This document shows positions 9,340 through 20,139 of a stretch of 64,000 bases of DNA, in pieces. Positions within the stretch are counted from its first letter, which is position 1; each line of letters starts with the position of its first letter. Position numbers and translations under genes: made by a program. The stretch spans positions 124,001 through 188,000 of the forward strand of contig JAHDGU010000009.1 in assembly GCA_020627535.1 (NCBI GenBank), written 5' to 3'. Origin of the DNA: Saprospiraceae bacterium. GTDB lineage: Bacteria; Bacteroidota; Bacteroidia; Chitinophagales; Saprospiraceae. The notes below the pieces were generated by a model. The model had not been told where the DNA came from, did no database searches, and saw only the letters and a program-made list of their open reading frames with translations.

Positions 9340-9996
9340 TTATTGGACGAGCAGGTGCTCAGCGACCTCTTTGGTGAAGGTGAATCTTGAGCTATCGTTG
9401 CAGAGAACTAGAAGACTTCCGTCAAATGATTCGACTTGAAGGATTTGGATTTTGGTGCCAAGTTGTATCTCACGTTTGTTGAGATACAATAAGAGTTCGG
9501 CGGTGCTGTTTTTTAAGGCTTTGAGGGTGACGGCTTCACTCTGTGGCACATCAACAAGTCGTCGATACTCTGGCCTTGTGATATGACCGTTTTTATCTGG
9601 AATCGGTGAGCCGTGAGGATCGACAGCGGGGAAGCCAAGGAGCTCATCCATGCGATCGAAAAACTTCTCCACCTTGATATGCTCTAGCTCTACGGCGATG
9701 TCATGTACCTCTTCCCAGCCGAAGTTCATGATTTTGGACAAGAACATTTCTGAGAGACGGTGCTTTCGGATGATGGCGGCTGCCGTTTTGATTCCTAGTT
9801 CGGTGAGCCTTATTGGCTTGTAGCGCTCACTGATTACGATCCCCTCTTCTTTGAGCTTTCTGATCATGTCGTTGGCAGTGGGCTTACTGACCTCAAGATC
9901 TCTTCCTAGGTCAGATAGAGATATCTCTTCGCTCTTGAGATGGAGGTGGTAGAGGGCTTTGATGTAGTTCTCTTTTGTACTAGAATTCTGTGCCAT
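9340..9996 (-). CDS. DtxR/MntR-family metal-dependent repressor
   Basis: 218 residues in the usual three-part DtxR layout: winged helix-turn-helix (about 1-65, with SLSDLGRDLEVSKPTANDMI as the HTH), metal-binding and dimerisation helices (about 66-140, LSEMFLSKIMNFGWEEVHDI and VELEHIKVEKFFDRMDELL, then PHGSPIP), and a C-terminal FeoA/SH3-like domain ending VAEHLLVQ. It would bind Fe(II) or Mn(II) and repress metal uptake. Likely targets are the adjacent iron-type genes, but no operator was identified. The start codon lies two bases from an open frame for a TonB-receptor tail, so its promoter must lie inside that remnant. Confidence 0.93.
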   Translation of the reverse strand: MAQNSSTKENYIKALYHLHLKSEEISLSDLGRDLEVSKPTANDMIRKLKEEGIVISERYKPIRLTELGIKTAAAIIRKHRLSEMFLSKIMNFGWEEVHDIAVELEHIKVEKFFDRMDELLGFPAVDPHGSPIPDKNGHITRPEYRRLVDVPQSEAVTLKALKNSTAELLLYLNKREIQLGTKIQILQVESFDGSLLVLCNDSSRFTFTKEVAEHLLVQ

Positions 9997-9998
9997 GA

Positions 9999-10385
9999 AA
10001 AATAGATGGCATCAGAGAATTTATCCGTACTCCGGATGACTATGGATTCGCTCTATTGAGCCTATACCCGAGTGATCGATGGATTCTCAGCTTGAATTAT
10101 GTATACACAGGCTCTATGAGAGTGCCTCACTTTGCCGGTGCGCCCAATCAACTGACCGACGAGATCGTAGATACGCAGGGTTTTTCGGATGTGAGCATCA
10201 AGATTGACTATTCGCTTCCGCTAAAAGGGCTGAAATCTAAGCTGGCAATTTTTGGAGGCGTGAAGAATGTTTTTAACGCATACCAAAGTGATTTTGACCT
10301 TGGGAAAAATCGGGATAGCAATTATGTCTATGGCCCAGGATTGCCTAGGACATATTTTGTCGGTGTGGCGTGGAGCTCGCAATAA
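9999..10385 (+). pseudogene. C-terminal remnant of a TonB-dependent receptor
   Basis: An open frame with no plausible start, beginning directly after an in-frame stop at 9996-9998. It encodes about 128 residues: DGIREFIRTPDDYGFALL, a PSDRWILSLNYVYTGSM strand pair, a FGGVKNVFNAYQSDFD turn, and the C-terminal end YVYGPGLPRTYFVGVAW. This is the last part of a TonB receptor barrel; the plug and most strands are gone. The best in-frame start, TTG 10056, would give only 109 residues. The truncation point sits against the start codon of the DtxR-type gene, which suggests a deletion fused the two. TonB receptors next to DtxR regulators are usually metal or siderophore receptors. Confidence 0.85.
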
Positions 10386-11331: not shown

Positions 11332-12504
11332 ATGACTAAATGGAAGATAGGTTTTTTGCTCTTGGTTTTGATACTTGTGCACGTATCTTGTAATGAGGAT
11401 GATAATTATGTGCCTATTGAAAGTGCCGCTGTTGTTCTTCCAGAAGAACCGTTCGACTATGTCAACTTAGATTTACCAAGTCATTTTACCATTGATGTGC
11501 CGGGACAAGCTTTACCAACATCTATCAATGGACTAGACAATACACCAATTGATAACCCAATAACTAATGAAGGAGCTACATTAGGGCGAGTACTCTTTTA
11601 CGATAAGCTTTTAAGTGCAAATGGAACGATTGCATGTGCATCCTGTCACAAACAGGACAAAGGCTTTTCAGATGATGAGGTTTTAAGTGTGGGATTTGAT
11701 GGTGAGCTTACTGGTCGTCATTCAATGACATTAATAAATTCAAGATTTTATCAAAGAGGACGTTTCTTTTGGGATGAAAGAGCAAGGACTCTAGAAGAAC
11801 AGGTCCTTGAACCTTTTCAAGACCCAGTTGAAATGGGAATGACGCTAGAACAGGTTGTAAGTTCAGTACAAGAACGGGATTTTTATGCAGATTTGTTCGA
11901 AGATGCTTTTGGCGCTAGTGAGATAACTAGTGACAAAATCTCAATGGCATTAGCGCAATTTGTACGCAGTATAGTTAGTCATTCTAGTAAATACGATGAG
12001 GGAAGAGATATGTCAAACTCTCCTGGAGCAAGTTTCCCAAACTTTTCAGATGAAGAGAATTTGGGTAAAAATTTGTTCTTTCAGACTATTTCTAATGGTG
12101 GTGGTGCTTGTTTTGGTTGTCATACTACAGAGGCATTTGTCAGCGCAAACCCAGGCCCACAAAATAATGGACTTGATTTAGTGACAACAGATCTAGGTGC
12201 TGGGGCGGTTTTGGGTAATTCTATTTTTGAAGGTCGTTTTAAAACTACGACTCTGCGAAATATAGAACTTACATCACCTTATATGCACGATGGTAGATTT
12301 GCAACATTAGAAGAGGTTGTTGAGCACTATAACAGTGGAATACAAGCTCATCCTACGCTATCGCCGGCATTGATGGACGACAGTGGAAATCCCGTTCGAC
12401 TGAATTTTACAGATTCTGAAAAAGCTGCCTTAGTTGCATTCTTGAAGACATTGACAGACAATAATGTAAGTTCTGAGGAAAAATGGAGCGATCCATTTGA
12501 ATAA
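11332..12504 (+). CDS. Di-haem cytochrome c peroxidase / MauG-like lipoprotein
   Basis: 390 residues with a lipoprotein signal (LVLILVHVSC, lipid Cys 20). Two c-type haem sites are visible: CASCH at 102-106 in the N-terminal domain and CFGCH at 260-264 in the C-terminal domain. Family landmarks include TLGRVLFYDKLLSANGTIAC, GRFFWDERARTLEEQ and YMHDGRFATLEEVVEHYNSG. It acts in the periplasm, reducing hydrogen peroxide or oxidising a partner with electrons from cytochrome c. The gene is AT-rich (sampled lines 33-40% G+C) compared with its upstream neighbours, which suggests transfer. In many Bacteroidota such peroxidases lie beside imelysin and TonB iron genes, as here. Confidence 0.93.
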   Translation: MTKWKIGFLLLVLILVHVSCNEDDNYVPIESAAVVLPEEPFDYVNLDLPSHFTIDVPGQALPTSINGLDNTPIDNPITNEGATLGRVLFYDKLLSANGTIACASCHKQDKGFSDDEVLSVGFDGELTGRHSMTLINSRFYQRGRFFWDERARTLEEQVLEPFQDPVEMGMTLEQVVSSVQERDFYADLFEDAFGASEITSDKISMALAQFVRSIVSHSSKYDEGRDMSNSPGASFPNFSDEENLGKNLFFQTISNGGGACFGCHTTEAFVSANPGPQNNGLDLVTTDLGAGAVLGNSIFEGRFKTTTLRNIELTSPYMHDGRFATLEEVVEHYNSGIQAHPTLSPALMDDSGNPVRLNFTDSEKAALVAFLKTLTDNNVSSEEKWSDPFE

Positions 12505-12735: not shown

Positions 12736-13842
12736 CTATTTATGCTTGAAGATTTCAATCCTCTCACCAGCACATAGATAGTACGGCATTAAGTCAACAA
12801 CCATGCAGGAGTGAACTGGAAGAATATACACCAATTGACCTCGTCGATAATCTGTAGGATTGGGTACATGTATCGTGCCGTGTTCTTGAGAGAGCTTTTT
12901 GACGTACGTCTCTTTCAATAAACTGCCTATGTGGTGACCCTGCATATCTGCGAGTTGGCCATATATATCACCGATGCCAGGTATGCCGAGGCGATCCTTG
13001 GAGAGATGGATACCTCCTGCATTGACGATGATCTCGTGTCGGTCGGGATAAATGGCAATGATGGGACAGGCCACCGCAACTGCGATATCATCTGCTTGAC
13101 ATGATCCGATCGCGAGCTGAGTCAAATCATAGAAGACAAAGTTGCCAGGTCGTAGCTCATCTACTAGTCCGAAGTTGAGAGCTGTGCTGCAGGCAGGCGT
13201 GTCTCCCAAGGAGATATGTGCCTCTGGAAAAGAATGCTTGAGCTCATTGAGTTTATCCATACTGTCGTGGTGAATAGCTCGAATCTCATGAACGGACCGA
13301 GCATCATAGCTATGGCCGTTGTGGATGACGAAGCCTCCAAATCGCAGATTCTTTTTGGCCGAAAGGCCCTCAATCATGCTCCTAATCAGCTCAATCTCCG
13401 TGCTGTCTACACCGGTGCGGCCATATCCTGCATCTATCTCTATGTGGACGGTGATAGAAGTGTGGAGGGCTTTCGCCAAAATGGGTATGAGTTCTGAATG
13501 CTCGATCAGTATGTGCAGGGAGCATTTCTTGGCCAATTGATCGATACGGGCTAACTCCCGCAGATTGGTCGGAATGGCGATCATGATGTCATCCCAGTCC
13601 TCGGCAAAGTACTCTGCCATACTTACGGAGGAGACAGCGATCTTTTCCACGTCGTATGGGCGAAACCAGCGCCCAACCTCGAGGGACTGATGCGTCTTGA
13701 AATGAGGGCGGAATGAGAGCGAATGCTGGCTGCATATCTCTGCCATCCGATGGATATTGGCCAGGCATCGGCCCTTATCAAGGAGTAAGGTAGGCCTATC
13801 GATCATCTCATGCTGAGGGCTCATTGGAGGGTGTTTTTGCAT
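12736..13842 (-). CDS. D-threonine aldolase / D-serine dehydratase-like PLP enzyme
   Basis: 368 residues of the fold-III (alanine-racemase-like) PLP family. The PLP Lys is K49 in RPHFKTHQ; the barrel carries IEIDAGYGRTGV and VIHNGHSY, and the phosphate-binding loop is near SLGDTPACSTAL. The C-terminal domain ends with HSCMVVDLMPYYL, whose His-x-Cys pair is the divalent-metal site of D-threonine aldolase and eukaryotic-type D-serine dehydratase. The expected reaction is retro-aldol cleavage or deamination of a D-3-hydroxy amino acid in the cytoplasm; the substrate is open. ATG 13840-13842 is used; M7 or M13 are possible starts. Carries two copies of the hairpin motif family described under findings. 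Confidence 0.88.
   Translation of the reverse strand: MQKHPPMSPQHEMIDRPTLLLDKGRCLANIHRMAEICSQHSLSFRPHFKTHQSLEVGRWFRPYDVEKIAVSSVSMAEYFAEDWDDIMIAIPTNLRELARIDQLAKKCSLHILIEHSELIPILAKALHTSITVHIEIDAGYGRTGVDSTEIELIRSMIEGLSAKKNLRFGGFVIHNGHSYDARSVHEIRAIHHDSMDKLNELKHSFPEAHISLGDTPACSTALNFGLVDELRPGNFVFYDLTQLAIGSCQADDIAVAVACPIIAIYPDRHEIIVNAGGIHLSKDRLGIPGIGDIYGQLADMQGHHIGSLLKETYVKKLSQEHGTIHVPNPTDYRRGQLVYILPVHSCMVVDLMPYYLCAGERIEIFKHK
13353..13368 (+). repeat. Variant hairpin TTTTGGCCGAAAGGCC
   Basis: 4-bp stem GGCC/GGCC, GAAA loop, antisense in the aldolase-like gene (EGLSAKK). Confidence 0.6.
13468..13481 (-). repeat. TTTTGGCGAAAGCC copy in aldolase-like gene
   Basis: Exact copy, sense to the gene, encoding ILAKA; 99 bases from the previous hairpin. 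Confidence 0.8.
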
Positions 13843-13889: not shown

Positions 13890-13920
13890 CTACGTAGAAT
13901 TGATCTAAATAAAAATAACG

Positions 13921-15141
13921 ATGACGACACGTGGTTTTTCATGCCTTGTAGTTTTCACACTTATGGTCCTTGTGGCTTGCGAATCTGATCCAGATCCAAT
14001 GCCTGTGGTACAAGCTCCAGCTGTCTACAAATTTTCTAGAGACGGTGAAAGCACAGTATCCTTTGATGGCCAGACAACTCGTATCCTTATGGCCACCGAG
14101 CTGATCAATGCCATGGAAGACTTCGAAGTAGCTGAGCTAGCTCTCAATGAGATGTGGGCTAATGAAACGGCTGCGGGTGGCGATGCCGATCCATTTGAAA
14201 ACCCAGCGCTCAATGAGAGTACTAAGAGCGTACGTTCTAAGACAGCGGCCTCACAAGACTATTTTTCTTCCAATGTGACGGAGGCCATCAAAATCAAGTC
14301 TGAATTTGAATCTTGGATCAGTGCTCAGGTCAATGAAGTATTTCCCAATGAGTTGGTCTTGGCTGAGCCAGGGATAGCGGGTCAGATCGCTGATGATGTT
14401 TCGATCAGATACGTCAACGGTGATGGTCTGGAGTACAACCAAGCCGTCAACAAAGGACTCATTGGTGCTTTGATGCTAGATCAAATGGTCAACAACTATC
14501 TAAGCATCTCAGTACTTGATGCTGCCAGCAATAGAGCGGACAATGATGCTGGAACAGTTGCTAGTGGAAAGTCATACACCACCATGGAACACAAATGGGA
14601 TGAAGCGTACGGATACTTATTCGGCACGTCTCAGTCAGAATCTGATCCTCTACCTACACTCGGAGGAGATGATGCATTTTTTAATAAATATCTGCAGCGT
14701 GTCGATGGTGATGAGGACTTCACTGGTATTGCGGAAGAAGTATACGATGCATTCAAGCTCGGAAGAGCAGCTATTGTCGCTAAGAACTACACTGTACGAG
14801 ATCAGCAAGCGGCTAAGTTGCGAGAATTACTGTCCAAAGTAGTTGCTGTCCGTGCTGTCTACTATTTGCAACAAGGCAAGAACGGCATTCCTACATCGGG
14901 CTCGGATTTTGGTGCTGCCTTCCATGATCTTTCAGAAGGTTTCGGCTTTGTCTACAGCCTTAGATTCACAAGACAGCCGGATATAGATGCGCCATACTTC
15001 ACAGCTTCTGAAGTAGATGCTATGATTGCACAGCTTACTGCTGGCAATGGATTTTGGGATATCACTCCAGCTGTGCTCGATGCCATGTCAAAGCAGATCG
15101 CAGATGCCTTTGACTTTACAGTCGCTGAGGCAGGTTCGTAG
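13921..15141 (+). CDS. DUF4856 lipoprotein of imelysin locus
   Basis: 406 residues with a lipoprotein signal (TLMVLVAC, followed by ESDPDPMP). The DUF4856 start is clear: VYKFSRDGESTVSFDGQTTR, then a mostly helical body with a KWDEAYGYLFG segment and a LRFTRQPDI stretch near the C-terminus. DUF4856 proteins belong to the imelysin-associated group of periplasmic or surface lipoproteins; iron handling is inferred from neighbours, not demonstrated. First gene of an operon with imelysin, HTTM and a TonB receptor; the gap to the next gene is 50 bp. Confidence 0.88.
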   Translation: MTTRGFSCLVVFTLMVLVACESDPDPMPVVQAPAVYKFSRDGESTVSFDGQTTRILMATELINAMEDFEVAELALNEMWANETAAGGDADPFENPALNESTKSVRSKTAASQDYFSSNVTEAIKIKSEFESWISAQVNEVFPNELVLAEPGIAGQIADDVSIRYVNGDGLEYNQAVNKGLIGALMLDQMVNNYLSISVLDAASNRADNDAGTVASGKSYTTMEHKWDEAYGYLFGTSQSESDPLPTLGGDDAFFNKYLQRVDGDEDFTGIAEEVYDAFKLGRAAIVAKNYTVRDQQAAKLRELLSKVVAVRAVYYLQQGKNGIPTSGSDFGAAFHDLSEGFGFVYSLRFTRQPDIDAPYFTASEVDAMIAQLTAGNGFWDITPAVLDAMSKQIADAFDFTVAEAGS

Positions 15142-15191: not shown

Positions 15192-16304
15192 ATGAAGAGA
15201 CTTGGTCAGATACTCTTTTTCCTAGGTGTTTTAGTCATATGTCCGCTCGCTTGTGGTCCTGATACTGATCCGTTTGATGATTTGATGTCAGATGGGTTTG
15301 ATCGCAAAGAAATGTTAGTACACTGGGCTGATAATGTAATCATTCCAGCATTTGCCTCTTACGCTCATGCCACGGATGCCCTCAAGACAAGTGCCGTAAA
15401 TTTTGGGCTCGCGCTGGATGAGGATTCCCTTCTGAAACTCAAAGAGCACTGGCTAGACGCAGTAAAGAAATGGCAGGGGGTCTCTATGTTCGATATCGGT
15501 ATGGCCGAGCAGATTTCTTTGCGCGACTTTAGTAACATTTATCCTGTAGATGTAGAGATGATCGAGAATCACATAAGCACCGGACAATATAATCTTGAGC
15601 TTCCTTCGACGAGAGTTGCACAAGGCTTACAGGCATTGGACTATCTGTTGTATGCAAATCAAGATATTGAAAGGGTGCTCGCAGATTTTGACGATCAGAG
15701 ACGTAGACAATATTTGCAGGCAGTGGTCGAAAGATTGGATTCTTTAGCGCAACAAGTATTGGATCATTGGCAATCTGGCTATCGTGAAGCATTTATCTCA
15801 ACGGATGGATCCTCGGCAACGTCATCGGTGGATAAATTGACCAATGACTTTTTATTTTATTTCGAAAAATTTTTGCGGGCAGGTAAGGTAGGGATTCCAG
15901 CTGGTGTTTTTTCTAATACAGTTTTGCCAGATCGTGTAGAGGGTTACTACTCTCAGAGGTATTCAAGATCATTTACAGAGCTTGGGCTGAATGCCACAGT
16001 GGATTTTTTCATTGGAAAGAGTTATGATGGCGATGTCAATGGTCCCAGCCTAGAGGATTATATCAATCACGTTACTGCCCAGAACGGTACCAGGGACCTC
16101 ACCCTAGTCATTCTTGAACAGTGGGACAAGGCTAGGCAGGCCATTGAGTCACTAGATCCCAATCTTACTCGGCAAATAGAAAACAACAATGTCCAAATGT
16201 TAAAGGCGTACGACGAATTACAAAAGGCTGTTGTTTTGCTCAAGGTGGAGATGTTGCAGGCCTTGAATATACAAGTGGATTTTGTTGATGCTGATGGAGA
16301 CTAA
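15192..16304 (+). CDS. Imelysin-family lipoprotein (peptidase M75-like)
   Basis: 370 residues with a lipoprotein signal (LVICPLAC, then GPDTDPFDD). The imelysin helical bundle is seen in the LVHWADNVIIPAFASYAHAT start and in STRVAQGLQALDYLLYANQD. The family's GxHxxE signature aligns with GLQALD here, so the His is Gln and the Glu is Asp; a peptidase role is therefore unlikely, and metal binding in that mode is doubtful. Imelysins of the EfeO/IrpA type handle iron in the periplasm. Twelve bases before the next start. The iron role is inferred from family and context. Confidence 0.9.
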   Translation: MKRLGQILFFLGVLVICPLACGPDTDPFDDLMSDGFDRKEMLVHWADNVIIPAFASYAHATDALKTSAVNFGLALDEDSLLKLKEHWLDAVKKWQGVSMFDIGMAEQISLRDFSNIYPVDVEMIENHISTGQYNLELPSTRVAQGLQALDYLLYANQDIERVLADFDDQRRRQYLQAVVERLDSLAQQVLDHWQSGYREAFISTDGSSATSSVDKLTNDFLFYFEKFLRAGKVGIPAGVFSNTVLPDRVEGYYSQRYSRSFTELGLNATVDFFIGKSYDGDVNGPSLEDYINHVTAQNGTRDLTLVILEQWDKARQAIESLDPNLTRQIENNNVQMLKAYDELQKAVVLLKVEMLQALNIQVDFVDADGD

Positions 16305-16316
16305 TCACCTATACTA

Positions 16317-17648
16317 GTGATAGCTGAGCGATATTGGAATAAGACAGTAGAGGCCGCCCCATTGGCGGTCTTTCGTTTTTTATTTGGTCTATTGATGCTG
16401 TTGAGTATCATTAGGTTTGCTAGTTATGGTTGGATCGATAAGCTGTATTTTGATCCTATATTTCATTTTCATTACTATGGATTTGAGTGGGTCACAGTGC
16501 CTCCGACGTGGCTATGCTATGGTCTATTTGCTTTGTGTGGGATTTCTGCCATAGCGGTGGCATTGGGTTGGCATTATCATCAGTCTATTGTGATCTTTTT
16601 TTTGAGTTTTTCCTACATAGAACTCATGGATAAGAGTACGTATCTGAACCACTACTATTTTATATCCGTCGTCAGTTTTCTATTGATTTTTTTGCCGGCA
16701 AATCGATATTGGTCTTACGATGTCAAGCAAGGTCGTATCTTGGCGAGTAATAGAGTACGTGCATGGCAAGTGGACGCCATCAAGGTCTTGGTCACAATCG
16801 TATATTTTTATGCAGGTCTTGCCAAGATCAATGAAGATTGGCTGTGTCGAGCAATGCCAATGTCTATTTGGATGCCAGGAAAGTTATCCATAACCGGTTT
16901 GGGTGATCTCATGCATCAGCGATGGGTGCATTACTTCTTTAGTTGGTGTGGGATGTTGTATGATATTACCATCGCTTGGCTGCTCTGGTACAGGCCTACT
17001 CGGAAATTTGCCTTCTTTTTAGTTATTATTTTCCATTTGCTTACTGCGCTGATGTTTCCTATAGGCATGTTTCCCTATATCATGATCTTAGCGGCGTCAA
17101 TATTTTTTTCAGCATCTCATCATGAAAGATTCTTAGGTTTTGTTAATAAATGGCTTCCTATGCATGTAAATACAGTAACGGATGCTGTTCTCGCGCCAAT
17201 CTGGACGAAGTGGATTGTGCTCATTGTACTTTTGTTGCAATTGGTTTTCCCTTGGAGATATCTGTGGTCGCACGGAGACCTGCATTGGGAGGAGAGTGCA
17301 TATCGATTTGGGTGGCGAGTGATGCTTCATGAAAAGACAGGTGACGCTCAATTTCGTATCCTCAATAAGTCCACGGGCCAATTTTTTTACGTTCAGAATA
17401 ATGACTTTTTGACACCGCTGCAGCGAAAAGAGATGAGTACTCAGGCTGACTTTATCTGGGAGTACGCCAGAATGTTGGAAAGGCACTTTGTGGGCCAAGG
17501 TCATTCGGATCTGGCTATCTATGTGGATAGCCACGCCTCTTTAAATGGTCGAGCAGTGCAGACTTTTGTAGATGGTACTATTGATTTATTGAGCATTGAG
17601 AAGCCTTGTGAACTTTATCGCTACATCCAGCCCTTGGAAGATGACTAG
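16317..17648 (+). CDS. HTTM protein, vitamin K-dependent gamma-carboxylase homologue
   Basis: 443 residues: about 300 residues of transmembrane helices followed by a soluble tail. The match to the carboxylase membrane domain is residue-level: DKSTYLNH at 105-112 aligns with DKTSWNNH, which holds the catalytic-base Lys (K106 here), followed by LPANRYWSYD against MDANHYWSVD, then YFYAGLAKINEDW and FPIGMFPYIM. The catalytic Lys is therefore kept. In animals this domain carboxylates Glu using reduced vitamin K; Bacteroidota use menaquinone. Bacterial roles are unknown. GTG start at 16317. It overlaps the TonB receptor ATG by eight bases, so it is co-translated with it. The membrane segments rule out a soluble enzyme. 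Confidence 0.85.
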   Translation: MIAERYWNKTVEAAPLAVFRFLFGLLMLLSIIRFASYGWIDKLYFDPIFHFHYYGFEWVTVPPTWLCYGLFALCGISAIAVALGWHYHQSIVIFFLSFSYIELMDKSTYLNHYYFISVVSFLLIFLPANRYWSYDVKQGRILASNRVRAWQVDAIKVLVTIVYFYAGLAKINEDWLCRAMPMSIWMPGKLSITGLGDLMHQRWVHYFFSWCGMLYDITIAWLLWYRPTRKFAFFLVIIFHLLTALMFPIGMFPYIMILAASIFFSASHHERFLGFVNKWLPMHVNTVTDAVLAPIWTKWIVLIVLLLQLVFPWRYLWSHGDLHWEESAYRFGWRVMLHEKTGDAQFRILNKSTGQFFYVQNNDFLTPLQRKEMSTQADFIWEYARMLERHFVGQGHSDLAIYVDSHASLNGRAVQTFVDGTIDLLSIEKPCELYRYIQPLEDD

Positions 17649-20139
17649 ATTTCGGTGTTTCGTCTATATAATTTTACTTCAGTGTTGTGTTTGGTTTATT
17701 CGTGGACAGAGCTGTGAATTTGTCGTGATTGACTCAATTAGCAAGCAGGTCATTCCCTACGCGGATTTCCAAGATCTTAAGAGCTCAAGATATTGGACAG
17801 CAGATGATAGAGGTCATCTCATTATTGAGGAGATGAGGTCAGATTCATTGGAACTTGCAGTATTCGCTTTTGGCTACCAGCTCAAGGAAGTAATCGTTGA
17901 TGTGAGCGATCTTAATGGATTCGCATACATAAAGCTCAATAGATTATCGAGAACTCTGAATACTGTTCAGATCACGGCAACGAGGAAGGATATTTTTCGT
18001 ATTAGAAAACTACGTGATACTGAGGACGCTGCCATTTTTGCTGGCAAGCGCAATGAGGTCGTTTTGATGGATCTTGTACAAGCCAATAAGGCGGGTGCAG
18101 TGGCTAGGCAAATTTTTGGCCAGGTCACTGGCTTGAATATCTATGAAGGGAATGATGGAGGATTACAGCTGAATATCGGAGGGCGTGGATTAGACCCAAA
18201 TCGAAGCTCTAACTTTAACATGCGCCAAAACAGCTACGATATTAGCGCAGATGTTCTTGGGTATCCTGAGAGCTATTACTCACCGCCCCCAGAAGGGGTA
18301 CAAGAGATCCAAATCATCAGAGGTGCTAGCTCTCTGCAGTATGGTTCTCAGTTTGGGGGTTTGGTCAATTTTAAGCTGAGAGAATTGCCTAAGCATTATC
18401 AGTGGGGGCTCAAAGCAAATCAAAGCTTCGGATCCTTTGGCCTGCGTAGTAGTTTTGTCAATCCAGCCTATAATTCTAAGAAACTCTCTGTCAATGCTTA
18501 TATAAATTACAAGAGAGGAGAAGGTTATAGAGAATTTTCAGATTTTGAGTCCATTGCAGCTTGGCTGAAGCTTGAATATCGTATCAGTGAGGTTTCAAGG
18601 ATTGAAGCAGAGTATAGTGTCATGGATTATCTTGCCCAGCAAGCCGGAGGCTTGACAGATTTACAGTTTTCGGACAATCCCAGACAGAGTACGCGTGAGC
18701 GAAATTGGTTTGACATCAACTGGAATTTACTCAACTTGAAATATCAGCGTAAGCTTGCCAACCGATCTACGTTTGTCGTAAGCTTATTTGCCCTCTTGGC
18801 AGATCGTAAGGCTTTAGGATTTCGCGGCAATCCAGTTTTTTTGAATGAGAATCCTATCTTGTCTGAAGACGAGCGGTCTCTGGATGGGGGTTACATCCTG
18901 CCACGAGATGCGCTTTTTAGCAATTTCAAAAATTGGGGATCAGAAGTAAAGTATCTCAAGTACTCTTCACTATGTGGTAAGAAGGTCAGTACGTTGATTG
19001 GTGCCAAGTATTATCATGCTAGTAATCTCACACAACAAGGACAAGGATTAGGCGGAGTGGATCCTGTTTTCGTTTTGTCATTTGGACCAGAGCGGCAATA
19101 CCCCAACAGTTCTTTCTTAACTCAGCCCAATCGCAATCTTGCCGTATTCGCCGAGAGTATTTTTTATTTGGGAGCCAAATGGAAAGTCATCCCCGGTCTG
19201 AGATACGAACACATAGTCACGGCAAATAGAGGTGAATATGTATTTAATACTTATGACAATTCTGGAAATATCATCAACTCGACGTGGCTCGAGGAGAATC
19301 AGCGTTTTCAAAGAAGCTTCTTGTTGCTCGGCTTGGGCATGGAGTATCAACTAAGTAAGGACGTTGATCTGCTGATCAACCTTACTGAGAACTACCGATC
19401 CGTGACCTTCAGTGACTTGCGAGTAGTCAATCCTGGTTTCGTCATTGATCCAGACTTGACAGACGAGACGGGTTTCACTATGGACATAGGCGCAAGAGGC
19501 AAGCTAGGTGATTATATTTCCTTTGATATATCAGCGTACTGGGTCAGATATGCCAATAGGATTGGTCTAGTGCTGGATGATAGAGCCAATCGCAAGAGAA
19601 CCAATGTTGGGTCAGCCAATATTCTGGGACTTGAATCTTTGATTGAGATGAAGCCATTACGACTTTTGAAAGCAGTAGATCAGAAGGAGTGGGATCTATC
19701 GGTATTGGCCAATGTATCTTTTGTTGATGCAAGGTATGTTAGCTCACTACAGGCCAATGTCGCCGATAGAGGGGTGGAATTTGTACCTGCAAGAAATCTC
19801 AAGTTAACCACACAAGCAGCCTATAGGAATTTTGGACTCTCAGTCCAATGGACTAGTCTATCTAGCCAGTGGACTGATGCGCAAAACTCATTGGTCCCTG
19901 ATCCAAGTGATCGAAGATTTGGTCTTATTGGTGCCATACCTGCGTATCAAATTTGGGATGTAGATCTAACATGGGATTTTGGACCTCAATTCAAACTCAG
20001 TACGGGAGTCAATAACGCCCTAGGTGCGAATTATTTCACTAGGAGAGCGACGGGATATCCAGGACCTGGTATCATCCCTTCAGATGGTAGAAACTTTTAT
20101 GTAAGTCTGGAATATACTGTTAATAAGTTGAAGCACTAA
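17641..20139 (+). CDS. FecA-like TonB-dependent receptor
   Basis: 832 residues. ATG 17641 gives a good signal peptide (ending FIRGQS); upstream in-frame TTG codons lie inside the previous gene. An N-terminal carboxypeptidase-like domain (about 20-105) is followed by the plug, with TRQIFGQ-type residues VARQIFGQVTGLNIYEGND, GGRGLDPNRSSNFNMRQ and EIQIIRGASSLQYGSQFGG, then a 22-strand barrel ending FYVSLEYTVNKLKH. The plug resembles FecA-type ferric-citrate receptors. It imports an iron chelate across the outer membrane with TonB-ExbBD energy. Last gene of the operon; imelysin and peroxidase neighbours support iron. Confidence 0.92.
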   Translation: MTRFRCFVYIILLQCCVWFIRGQSCEFVVIDSISKQVIPYADFQDLKSSRYWTADDRGHLIIEEMRSDSLELAVFAFGYQLKEVIVDVSDLNGFAYIKLNRLSRTLNTVQITATRKDIFRIRKLRDTEDAAIFAGKRNEVVLMDLVQANKAGAVARQIFGQVTGLNIYEGNDGGLQLNIGGRGLDPNRSSNFNMRQNSYDISADVLGYPESYYSPPPEGVQEIQIIRGASSLQYGSQFGGLVNFKLRELPKHYQWGLKANQSFGSFGLRSSFVNPAYNSKKLSVNAYINYKRGEGYREFSDFESIAAWLKLEYRISEVSRIEAEYSVMDYLAQQAGGLTDLQFSDNPRQSTRERNWFDINWNLLNLKYQRKLANRSTFVVSLFALLADRKALGFRGNPVFLNENPILSEDERSLDGGYILPRDALFSNFKNWGSEVKYLKYSSLCGKKVSTLIGAKYYHASNLTQQGQGLGGVDPVFVLSFGPERQYPNSSFLTQPNRNLAVFAESIFYLGAKWKVIPGLRYEHIVTANRGEYVFNTYDNSGNIINSTWLEENQRFQRSFLLLGLGMEYQLSKDVDLLINLTENYRSVTFSDLRVVNPGFVIDPDLTDETGFTMDIGARGKLGDYISFDISAYWVRYANRIGLVLDDRANRKRTNVGSANILGLESLIEMKPLRLLKAVDQKEWDLSVLANVSFVDARYVSSLQANVADRGVEFVPARNLKLTTQAAYRNFGLSVQWTSLSSQWTDAQNSLVPDPSDRRFGLIGAIPAYQIWDVDLTWDFGPQFKLSTGVNNALGANYFTRRATGYPGPGIIPSDGRNFYVSLEYTVNKLKH

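Follow-up and report, generated by a model that had tools for sequence, protein, structure and literature searches.

The stretch of DNA analysed here, called the window, comprises 64,000 nucleotides of a Saprospiraceae bacterium (GenBank assembly GCA_020627535.1, contig JAHDGU010000009.1, positions 124,001 to 188,000 of the forward strand) and contains four adjoining genes for a DUF4856 lipoprotein, an imelysin lipoprotein, a member of the vitamin-K-dependent gamma-carboxylase (VKGC) family and a TonB-dependent receptor, preceded by a Fur-box-like palindrome (Table 1). This four-gene unit of lipoproteins, VKGC and receptor, with a Fur box in front of it, recurs in Bacteroidota, and the VKGC in it retains its main catalytic residues. 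We tentatively propose that in this operon the enzyme carboxylates a protein that takes part in iron capture.

Table 1. The operon and its upstream palindrome, in positions of the window
Feature	Position	Strand	Remarks
Fur-box-like palindrome ACGTAGAATTGATCTAAAT	13892..13910	+	10 bases 5' of the DUF4856 start codon; 4 mismatches to the Riemerella Fur box
DUF4856 lipoprotein	13921..15141	+	Lipobox Cys20; PF16148, E 1.8e-140; conserved EHKWDEAYGY and HDLSEGFGF motifs
Imelysin lipoprotein (Peptidase_M75)	15192..16304	+	PF09375, E 2.8e-26, over cut-off; degenerate GxHxxE (GLQALD); C-terminal DGD tail
VKGC	16317..17648	+	GTG start; predicted HTTM transmembrane domain, residues 8-266; VKGC lumenal domain, 299-442; K170 = GGCX K218, H112 = H160, N111 = N159
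TonB-dependent receptor, weakly FecA-like	17641..20139	+	ATG start; PF00593, E 1.3e-27; NF041676 (FecA), 101 bits, cut-off 1100

The VKGC gene is a 443-residue open frame, separated from the imelysin stop codon by 12 bases (16305-16316) and overlapping the receptor gene by eight, spacings that had been given correctly in an earlier reading of the DNA from its letters alone (the sequence-only reading). That reading had also assigned the product to the vitamin-K-carboxylase type. This identity is borne out by both Pfam domains (HTTM, PF05090, E 4e-77; VKGC_lumenal_dom, PF22777, E 1e-43; both over cut-off), by a phmmer search of the PDB, in which all matches at E ≤ 0.001 were chains of the animal gamma-glutamyl carboxylase GGCX (eight distinct sequences, best E 3e-40), and by a predicted GGCX fold. 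Identity to GGCX is 26%, and the alignment falls into two stretches (residues 8-275 and 301-440). An AlphaFold2 model built from 38 input sequences (predicted local distance difference test score 87.6) gave 16 Foldseek matches at E ≤ 0.001, every one of them GGCX (E 7.5e-23 with a TM score by query length of 0.84; such TM scores reached 0.85). When the model was superposed on GGCX with VIA-align (Z 32.5, root-mean-square deviation 3.3, 435 residues aligned), all 443 residues together spanned GGCX 49-508. No other HTTM match was found in the source genome. Judged by its domains, predicted fold and catalytic residues, we conclude that the product is a member of the VKGC family that lacks part of the animal-type substrate-binding region.

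Recurrence of the operon was surveyed in genomes of Bacteroidota. One set of loci, chosen by similarity, consists of the best 80 of at least 578 relatives in GTDB species genomes together with the window's own short locus (3.8 kb), giving 81 loci; a second set, in which similarity played no part, came from a draw of 395 genomes, 82 of which carried the VKGC lumenal domain, at 96 places (the window's own and 95 others). A second draw, made at class level, comprised 325 genomes, 112 of them with homologues of the DGD-tailed imelysin; 90 of these were tested for VKGC, the others being 14 that were already in the first draw and 8 that were left out. The order DUF4856-imelysin-VKGC-TonB receptor recurs across the phylum. 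Of the 81 loci, 78 were found to have DUF4856, 79 imelysin and 75 the receptor, with the same gene order in nearly all and with short gaps and overlaps. Some partner genes were missed at contig ends (DUF4856 in L030 and L061; the receptor in L004, L037, L038 and L053) and others are truly missing at the locus (DUF4856 in L042; imelysin and receptor in L069 and L075). The last two loci belong to two Roseivirga genomes, where DUF4856 and VKGC stand together at one locus and imelysin and receptor at another, once with a further DUF4856.

Of the 96 VKGC places, 72 were operon-type, with imelysin adjoining in 70, and 24 were not; a tree of 149 distinct VKGC sequences and GGCX placed the operon-type proteins in one clade, in which L164 is the sole non-operon member (support 0.88). 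Imelysin was present in 72 of 82 VKGC genomes versus 18 of 313 without VKGC (p 3e-50) and DUF4856 in 53 of 82 versus 5 of 313 (p 1e-38), p values that serve as a guide only, the genomes being related. Upstream neighbours in the DUF4856 slot matched the DUF4856 profile at E ≤ 1e-3 in 54 of 60 tested cases, and in divergent lineages this slot is often filled by a lipoprotein with a weak profile match or none; the most constant partner of VKGC is imelysin with the C-terminal DGD tail (149/149 linked imelysins). A di-haem gene lies directly 5' of the imelysin-VKGC pair in Persicobacter (L230, profile-tested, where a second imelysin precedes it) and in L190 (by sequence look only). At the 24 non-operon places, which hold a second type of VKGC, a ribF-like gene stands directly before the enzyme in 15 and a serS-like gene after it in nine; both neighbours were profile-checked in one locus (L171, 7261-10916). 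Sampling outside Bacteroidota consisted of a plasmid collection, which yielded four VKGC matches, one of them in Paracoccus, and no VKGC relative was confirmed on viral contigs with exact peptide patterns, the only kind of query applied to them.

Residues were mapped through the phmmer alignment to GGCX, with roles taken from the available portions of the GGCX structure paper (PMC12589487) and with full-length numbering, which is the printed chain number plus 31 (residues 25-291 of the short chain versus 56-322 of the 758-residue chain). In that account K218 is the catalytic base, K154 is a hydrogen-bond partner of D442/Q446, and the side chain of the substrate Glu is contacted by N159, H160 and Y395. 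All four motifs picked out in the sequence-only reading (DKSTYLNH, ANRYWSYD, YFYAGLAK and FPIGMFPY) are present in the window VKGC and align with GGCX. Its choice of the Lys in DKSTYLNH as the catalytic one fell on the wrong residue: this Lys, K106, corresponds to K154, and the base K218 corresponds to K170 in YFYAGLAK. The His of DKSTYLNH is H160 of GGCX, the Asn before it is N159, and Y329 is Y395.

Conservation was examined in 152 operon-type proteins, namely those of the 81 loci and 71 from the Bacteroidota draw not chosen by similarity, and in 15 further operon proteins from the second draw. Equivalents of K218, H160, N159, W223, F286, F294, F299, G259, A214, M402 and D153 were identical in 152/152, V210 was V in 146, and Y395 was Y in 118 and F in 34. 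K218, H160 and N159 were again identical in 15/15 of the further proteins, with G259 a G in 14. The catalytic Lys is thus kept, as had been stated, provided that K170 is meant; its loss in most orthologues, named beforehand as a refutation, was not seen, since it was lost in none of the 152 or the 15; the K154 equivalent was K in 147/152 and in 8/15. The equivalents of K218, H160 and N159 were also kept in 24/24 non-operon VKGC proteins. Together, the alignments indicate strict constraint on the base, on the Glu side-chain pocket and on the greater part of the quinol ring site, and no such constraint on the backbone contacts to the Gla (carboxyglutamate) domain. Because N159, H160 and Y395 are the residues that contact the substrate Glu in GGCX, the Glu pocket has been kept as well as the quinol site.

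Evidence for iron control comes from the sequence in front of the operon and from a relative. A 19-bp Fur-box motif published for Riemerella was matched with at most four mismatches 5' of DUF4856 in 70 of 74 relatives, against approximately 2.4 expected from shuffles of two-base blocks; for the window copy, 50 shuffles of the 330-base stretch gave best values of 6-9 mismatches. In Riemerella anatipestifer, a table of Fur regulation under iron restriction, in the portions available of PMC5609570, places together RAYM_09779 (TonB-dependent receptor), RAYM_09784 (vitamin K-dependent gamma-carboxylase), RAYM_09789 (imelysin) and RAYM_09794 (hypothetical). The outer-membrane-vesicle fraction of Tenacibaculum maritimum is described in part of PMC10288586 as rich in a FecA-like receptor and four imelysin-like lipoproteins, which we do not tie to the VKGC operon.

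The two lipoproteins offer candidate features for export and metal binding. A lipobox-like Cys was found in 142/146 imelysins and 132/135 DUF4856 proteins, and at least two acidic residues occupy the six positions after it in 85/142 and 115/132, respectively, counts for which no background rate was computed. Acidic residues behind the lipobox Cys are a surface-export signal in Bacteroidota, and these sequences are consistent with surface export of both proteins. The nearest PDB sequence to the window imelysin is IPPA (3pf0); the GxHxxE motif of imelysin has lost its His, and its Glu is an Asp in the window (G145-LQAL-D150) and in 127/150. The AlphaFold2 model of DUF4856 scored 93 for predicted local distance difference and gave no significant PDB match with Foldseek. 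A second look with VIA ranked alpha-catenin-family M domains at the top, at a Z of 7.9 that lies within the tool's stated helical-bundle background, and this candidate fold was rejected. Imelysins were not among the 50 rows shown in the same VIA search, and hhalign of the DUF4856 and imelysin profiles aligned the signal peptides alone; the fold matches are uninformative. In the DUF4856 helix motifs EHxxDEAxGY and HxxSExxGF, a His and a Glu each stand four residues apart, an arrangement that suggests a metal site in this confidently predicted structure.

We propose that VKGC carboxylates a Glu of an operon product, above all of the lipoproteins imelysin and DUF4856, and thereby aids iron capture. 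Iron starvation would induce the operon, and VKGC would be an inner-membrane protein whose active site points to the periplasm, by homology with the lumen of the endoplasmic reticulum. There, K170 would deprotonate menaquinol, which O2 would convert to the epoxide, and the strong base so formed would abstract a proton from a carboxylate of Glu type that H112 and N111 keep in place; carboxylation of this Glu would follow. Menaquinol is a plausible cofactor because menA is present in the source genome; for the epoxide reductase VKOR, that genome gave only a partial match below cut-off. The Glu would most likely be carried by a protein of the operon on its way past the periplasmic side of the inner membrane, with imelysin and DUF4856, prior to their export, as the foremost candidates. 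Through its extra carboxylate, that protein would bind Fe(III) more strongly or deliver it better to the TonB receptor. The VKGC step would be accessory: some lineages do without the enzyme, and many of those have an FA_hydroxylase-family gene beside the operon.

A number of observations weigh against this proposal. The window VKGC ends at the equivalent of GGCX residue 508, so that it has neither the Arch domain nor the remainder of the propeptide-binding domain. Across the 152 operon-type proteins the Gla-domain backbone contacts are changed (N158 to L in 152/152; R436 to Q in 139, M in 11 and E in 2), K217 has become A in 151 and S in 1, the ring residue M401 is V in 152, and the isoprenyl tunnel differs (V255 to F in 146, N290 to T in 151, V254 and G258 variable). 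VKOR does not co-occur with VKGC (18/82 VKGC genomes versus 74/313 others, p 0.88), and epoxide recycling is therefore left unexplained. The main text of a second Riemerella study on iron limitation (PMC5429918) uses neither the word imelysin nor carboxylase nor vitamin K. Moreover, the lipoprotein genes stand together without a detected VKGC at 18 loci from 18 genomes, four of these less than 90% complete. Among the columns in which 60% or more of the VKGC operons have Glu (imelysin 101, 225 and 250; DUF4856 60, 171, 223, 228 and 339), none is VKGC-specific; receptor Glu columns 41 and 107, which are partly conserved, do track VKGC, yet the window's receptor has neither. Within a genus that shows both states, no Glu differs in imelysin, one in DUF4856 and one in the receptor. 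A fixed target Glu in imelysin or DUF4856 would be expected to vanish where VKGC is missing, and we therefore give the proposal a probability of only about 0.42. The earlier suggestion that VKGC could modify one of the co-encoded lipoproteins is weakened in that no lipoprotein Glu distinguishes VKGC operons and that 18 genomes carry the lipoprotein genes without a detected VKGC. Either the modification improves a Glu that also works unmodified, or the positions of the targets are not fixed, or something other than these proteins is modified.

Three more specific signatures were tried, of which the first two were rejected and the third is not relied on. The DGD tail of imelysin at first looked like a VKGC tag, being present in 149/149 linked imelysins and, in the first draw, in 0/19 imelysin matches from the 18 genomes that have imelysin but no VKGC; in the second draw, VKGC was found in 61/80 genomes with tail-reaching imelysin matches and in 2/10 others, so that 19/80 tail-reaching genomes lack it, and the 20 imelysins from genomes without VKGC that were compared carry the tail too. 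Imelysin E225 as the target fared likewise: present in 152/152 linked proteins and variable in 14 unlinked ones of mixed subfamilies, it proved conserved in the 20 from VKGC-less genomes. The third candidate, DUF4856 as the cognate partner of the enzyme, had been prompted by an apparent grouping in one genus, an effect that did not come out cleanly; in three trees of 87 loci, the FA_hydroxylase state changed three times on DUF4856, four on the receptor and four on imelysin, and L275 breaks the pattern. As a side observation, loci with two imelysins (L269, L272, L276, L279, L225, L226, L233 and L234) have one with the C-terminal DGD tail of the VKGC-linked type, in L279 the only one of the two within the stretch, and a haem-motif gene adjoins the DGD-tailed imelysin in L269 (profile-tested, DHOR), L272, L276 and L279.

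Many of the loci without VKGC have a neighbour of their own. At 13 of the 18 the receptor directly follows the lipoprotein genes, and at 10, where genome completeness is 97% or more in every case, a gene for an FA_hydroxylase-family membrane protein of ~310 residues lies 0-305 bp from the operon, either upstream (in the same or the opposite direction) or downstream. FA_hydroxylases are a family of membrane enzymes that use O2. The five of these ten genes that were tested matched FA_hydroxylase PF04116 (E 8e-22 to 3e-26); an NCBIfam scan of four of them placed the ornithine-lipid hydroxylase OlsE closest among the curated models, at 46-64 bits for a cut-off of 475. No such neighbour was found in 15 VKGC operons from five of the same families. 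The 166 distinct loci with a VKGC operon, of which 147 had 1 kb of flank on either side, gave a single case of an FA_hydroxylase gene no more than 1.5 kb away: in L073 it lies at 606 bp, and it scored 61 bits with a model of our own versus 474-534 for the ten genes (which also built the model) and 67 bits with OlsE. The difference in adjacency between VKGC-less and VKGC loci gave a Fisher p of 1.5e-10, or 5e-4 against the 15 matched loci, values that are a guide only, the loci being related. On a tree of 103 receptors, in which several deep nodes are poorly supported, the VKGC/non-VKGC state changes six times versus a mean of 12.5 and a minimum of 10 in 200 shuffles; operons with the FA_hydroxylase neighbour appear at four positions in the tree, and at two of these they adjoin VKGC operons from the same genus (support 0.999 and 1.0). 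This neighbour, together with the repeated switches, suggests a slot for an oxygen-using membrane enzyme. At the other eight of the 18 loci no FA_hydroxylase-family gene was found nearby. In three of these (L271, L281 and L287) the receptor is followed by a gene for a protein of ~300 residues, which in L271 has no Pfam match and in L281 and L287 opens with a GCVSDVK lipoprotein start.

The same observations could be read as pointing to a membrane-associated small molecule, such as an aminolipid head group or a lipid-like chelator, for which carboxylation by VKGC and hydroxylation by the FA_hydroxylase would be alternatives acting on one target class. Such a target would suit the partition of the FA_hydroxylase gene (beside 10/18 VKGC-less loci and 0/15 VKGC operons from the same families), the several enzyme switches on the receptor tree, the lipoproteins without a target-Glu signature, the truncated propeptide-binding region and OlsE as the nearest curated model, four genes having been scanned and all lying far below cut-off (46-64 of 475 bits). 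The OlsE match, however, names the superfamily only, and the gene 606 bp from the operon in L073, a VKGC locus, reaches 67 bits with that model; the Glu pocket of N159, H160 and Y395 is retained, the Roseivirga VKGC adjoins DUF4856, a protein gene, and no chelator biosynthesis gene was seen in the operon. We consider a small-molecule target unlikely. It is quite unlikely, too, that VKGC acts as an epoxidase without carboxylation, so that the oxidation of menaquinol by O2 would itself be the purpose, for redox or for scavenging oxygen, although the invariance of the base K218 and the ring residues H160, W223, F286, F294 and F299 in 152/152 proteins and of V210 in 146, the loss of the Gla-domain backbone contacts and of part of the propeptide-binding region, and the nature of the alternative neighbour, a membrane oxygenase-family gene, would all fit. 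What such an enzyme does not obviously need is N159, which contacts the substrate Glu and not the quinol and is invariant in 152/152 and 15/15; H160 serves both sites. An activity of this kind was reportedly described by Rishavy and colleagues in 2005 for the Leptospira homologue, whose activity is altered.

That VKGC is a passenger kept by history, with a general function like that of the type adjoining ribF and serS, seems very unlikely to us. The VKGC type of housekeeping neighbourhoods does keep K218, H160 and N159, and some operons lack the enzyme, but a passenger would hardly be expected to show short gaps and overlaps and the same order in nearly all loci, a Fur box before the unit and, for a relative, a response to low iron that is already in print, co-occurrence with imelysin across related genomes (p 3e-50) and an FA_hydroxylase neighbour in 10/18 loci without it. 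Carboxylation of a Glu in an operon product is the reading that we prefer. A broader formulation, which we think somewhat unlikely to hold, is a Fur-controlled iron-capture system with an exchangeable inner-membrane 'oxygenase slot', which in most lineages would be occupied by a VKGC, supplying a metal ligand in the form of carboxyglutamate or of a lipid head group that has been carboxylated, and in others by an FA_hydroxylase-family enzyme that would make a hydroxylated ligand. To our knowledge this would be the first role known for Gla chemistry in bacteria, and, if true, it hints at the job of that chemistry outside blood clotting. The widespread iron-regulated four-gene setting offers a way to test, in environmental marine bacteria, what bacterial VKGC proteins do, with three candidate substrates encoded beside the enzyme, defined residues to mutate and one genus that carries the unit in both forms, with VKGC or with an FA_hydroxylase-family neighbour. 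Should carboxyglutamate be found, vitamin-K chemistry would be linked to iron capture.

Just upstream of the operon in the window lie a CCP/MauG-family di-haem gene (11332-12504, forward strand; nearest to the MbnH-type model TIGR04039, below cut-off) and a D-serine-dehydratase-like gene (12736-13842, reverse strand), and before these a DtxR/MntR-type metal repressor gene (9340-9996, reverse strand). The MauG-like, D-serine-dehydratase-like and DtxR genes were considered as part of the conserved unit and rejected, being found in 0/81 loci, among which the window's own 3.8-kb entry is too short to reach them. By the DtxR gene, a 109-residue frame (10056-10385, forward strand) resembles by eye the C-terminal end of a TonB-dependent receptor, possibly as a remnant, and has no Pfam match; it is followed by ~950 bases without a listed long frame.

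The sequence-only reading knew of no described role for this protein in iron uptake. This stands in so far as no proposal of one was found among the matches listed from open-licence full text; Fur/iron regulation of the matching gene set, on the other hand, is in print, as uninterpreted table rows (PMC5609570). Imelysin and gamma-carboxylase met in open-licence PMC full text only in that Riemerella Fur study, and the same searches returned no paper for HTTM with imelysin or DUF4856 and none joining imelysin, hydroxylase and TonB-dependent. The words carboxylase and vitamin K do not occur in the available text of the imelysin study of Xu et al. 2011 (PMC3143127), and a VKGC homologue exists in Leptospira according to part of PMC4555120. 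As far as searched, two features are undescribed in the literature: the recurrent place of VKGC in an iron operon under Fur control, and the FA_hydroxylase neighbour of many VKGC-less operons.

Among known systems, Pseudomonas aeruginosa PA4370-4373 (PIBO/IPPA), in the available portions of PMC3143127, shares imelysin lipoproteins and Fur control with the window operon, and the window imelysin, too, lacks the His of GxHxxE; the IPPA branch motif GxxxxE keeps the Glu, where the window imelysin has Asp. Unlike imelysin/EfeB operons of the PA4370-4373 type, the window's four-gene operon is without an EfeB-type di-haem gene and has VKGC and DUF4856 instead, and it differs from EfeUOB-type systems in that neither an EfeB di-haem protein nor an EfeU permease is encoded between 13921 and 20139. 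The FA_hydroxylase superfamily (PF04116, e.g., OlsE), the neighbour in 10/18 VKGC-less loci, is a family unrelated to VKGC. A published counterpart in gene content is R. anatipestifer RAYM_09779-09794, with receptor, VKGC, imelysin and a hypothetical protein, matched by annotation to table rows that, in the part available, name no role for VKGC (PMC5609570). GGCX itself (PDB 9wfn, 9wfc, 9bvk and others) has residues 509-758, whereas the window VKGC stops short of them, lacks K217, N158, M401, R436, V255 and N290, and sits in a bacterial iron operon; the two share the two-part architecture, the equivalent of residues 49-508, the base Lys, His160, Asn159 and most of the quinol-ring residues.

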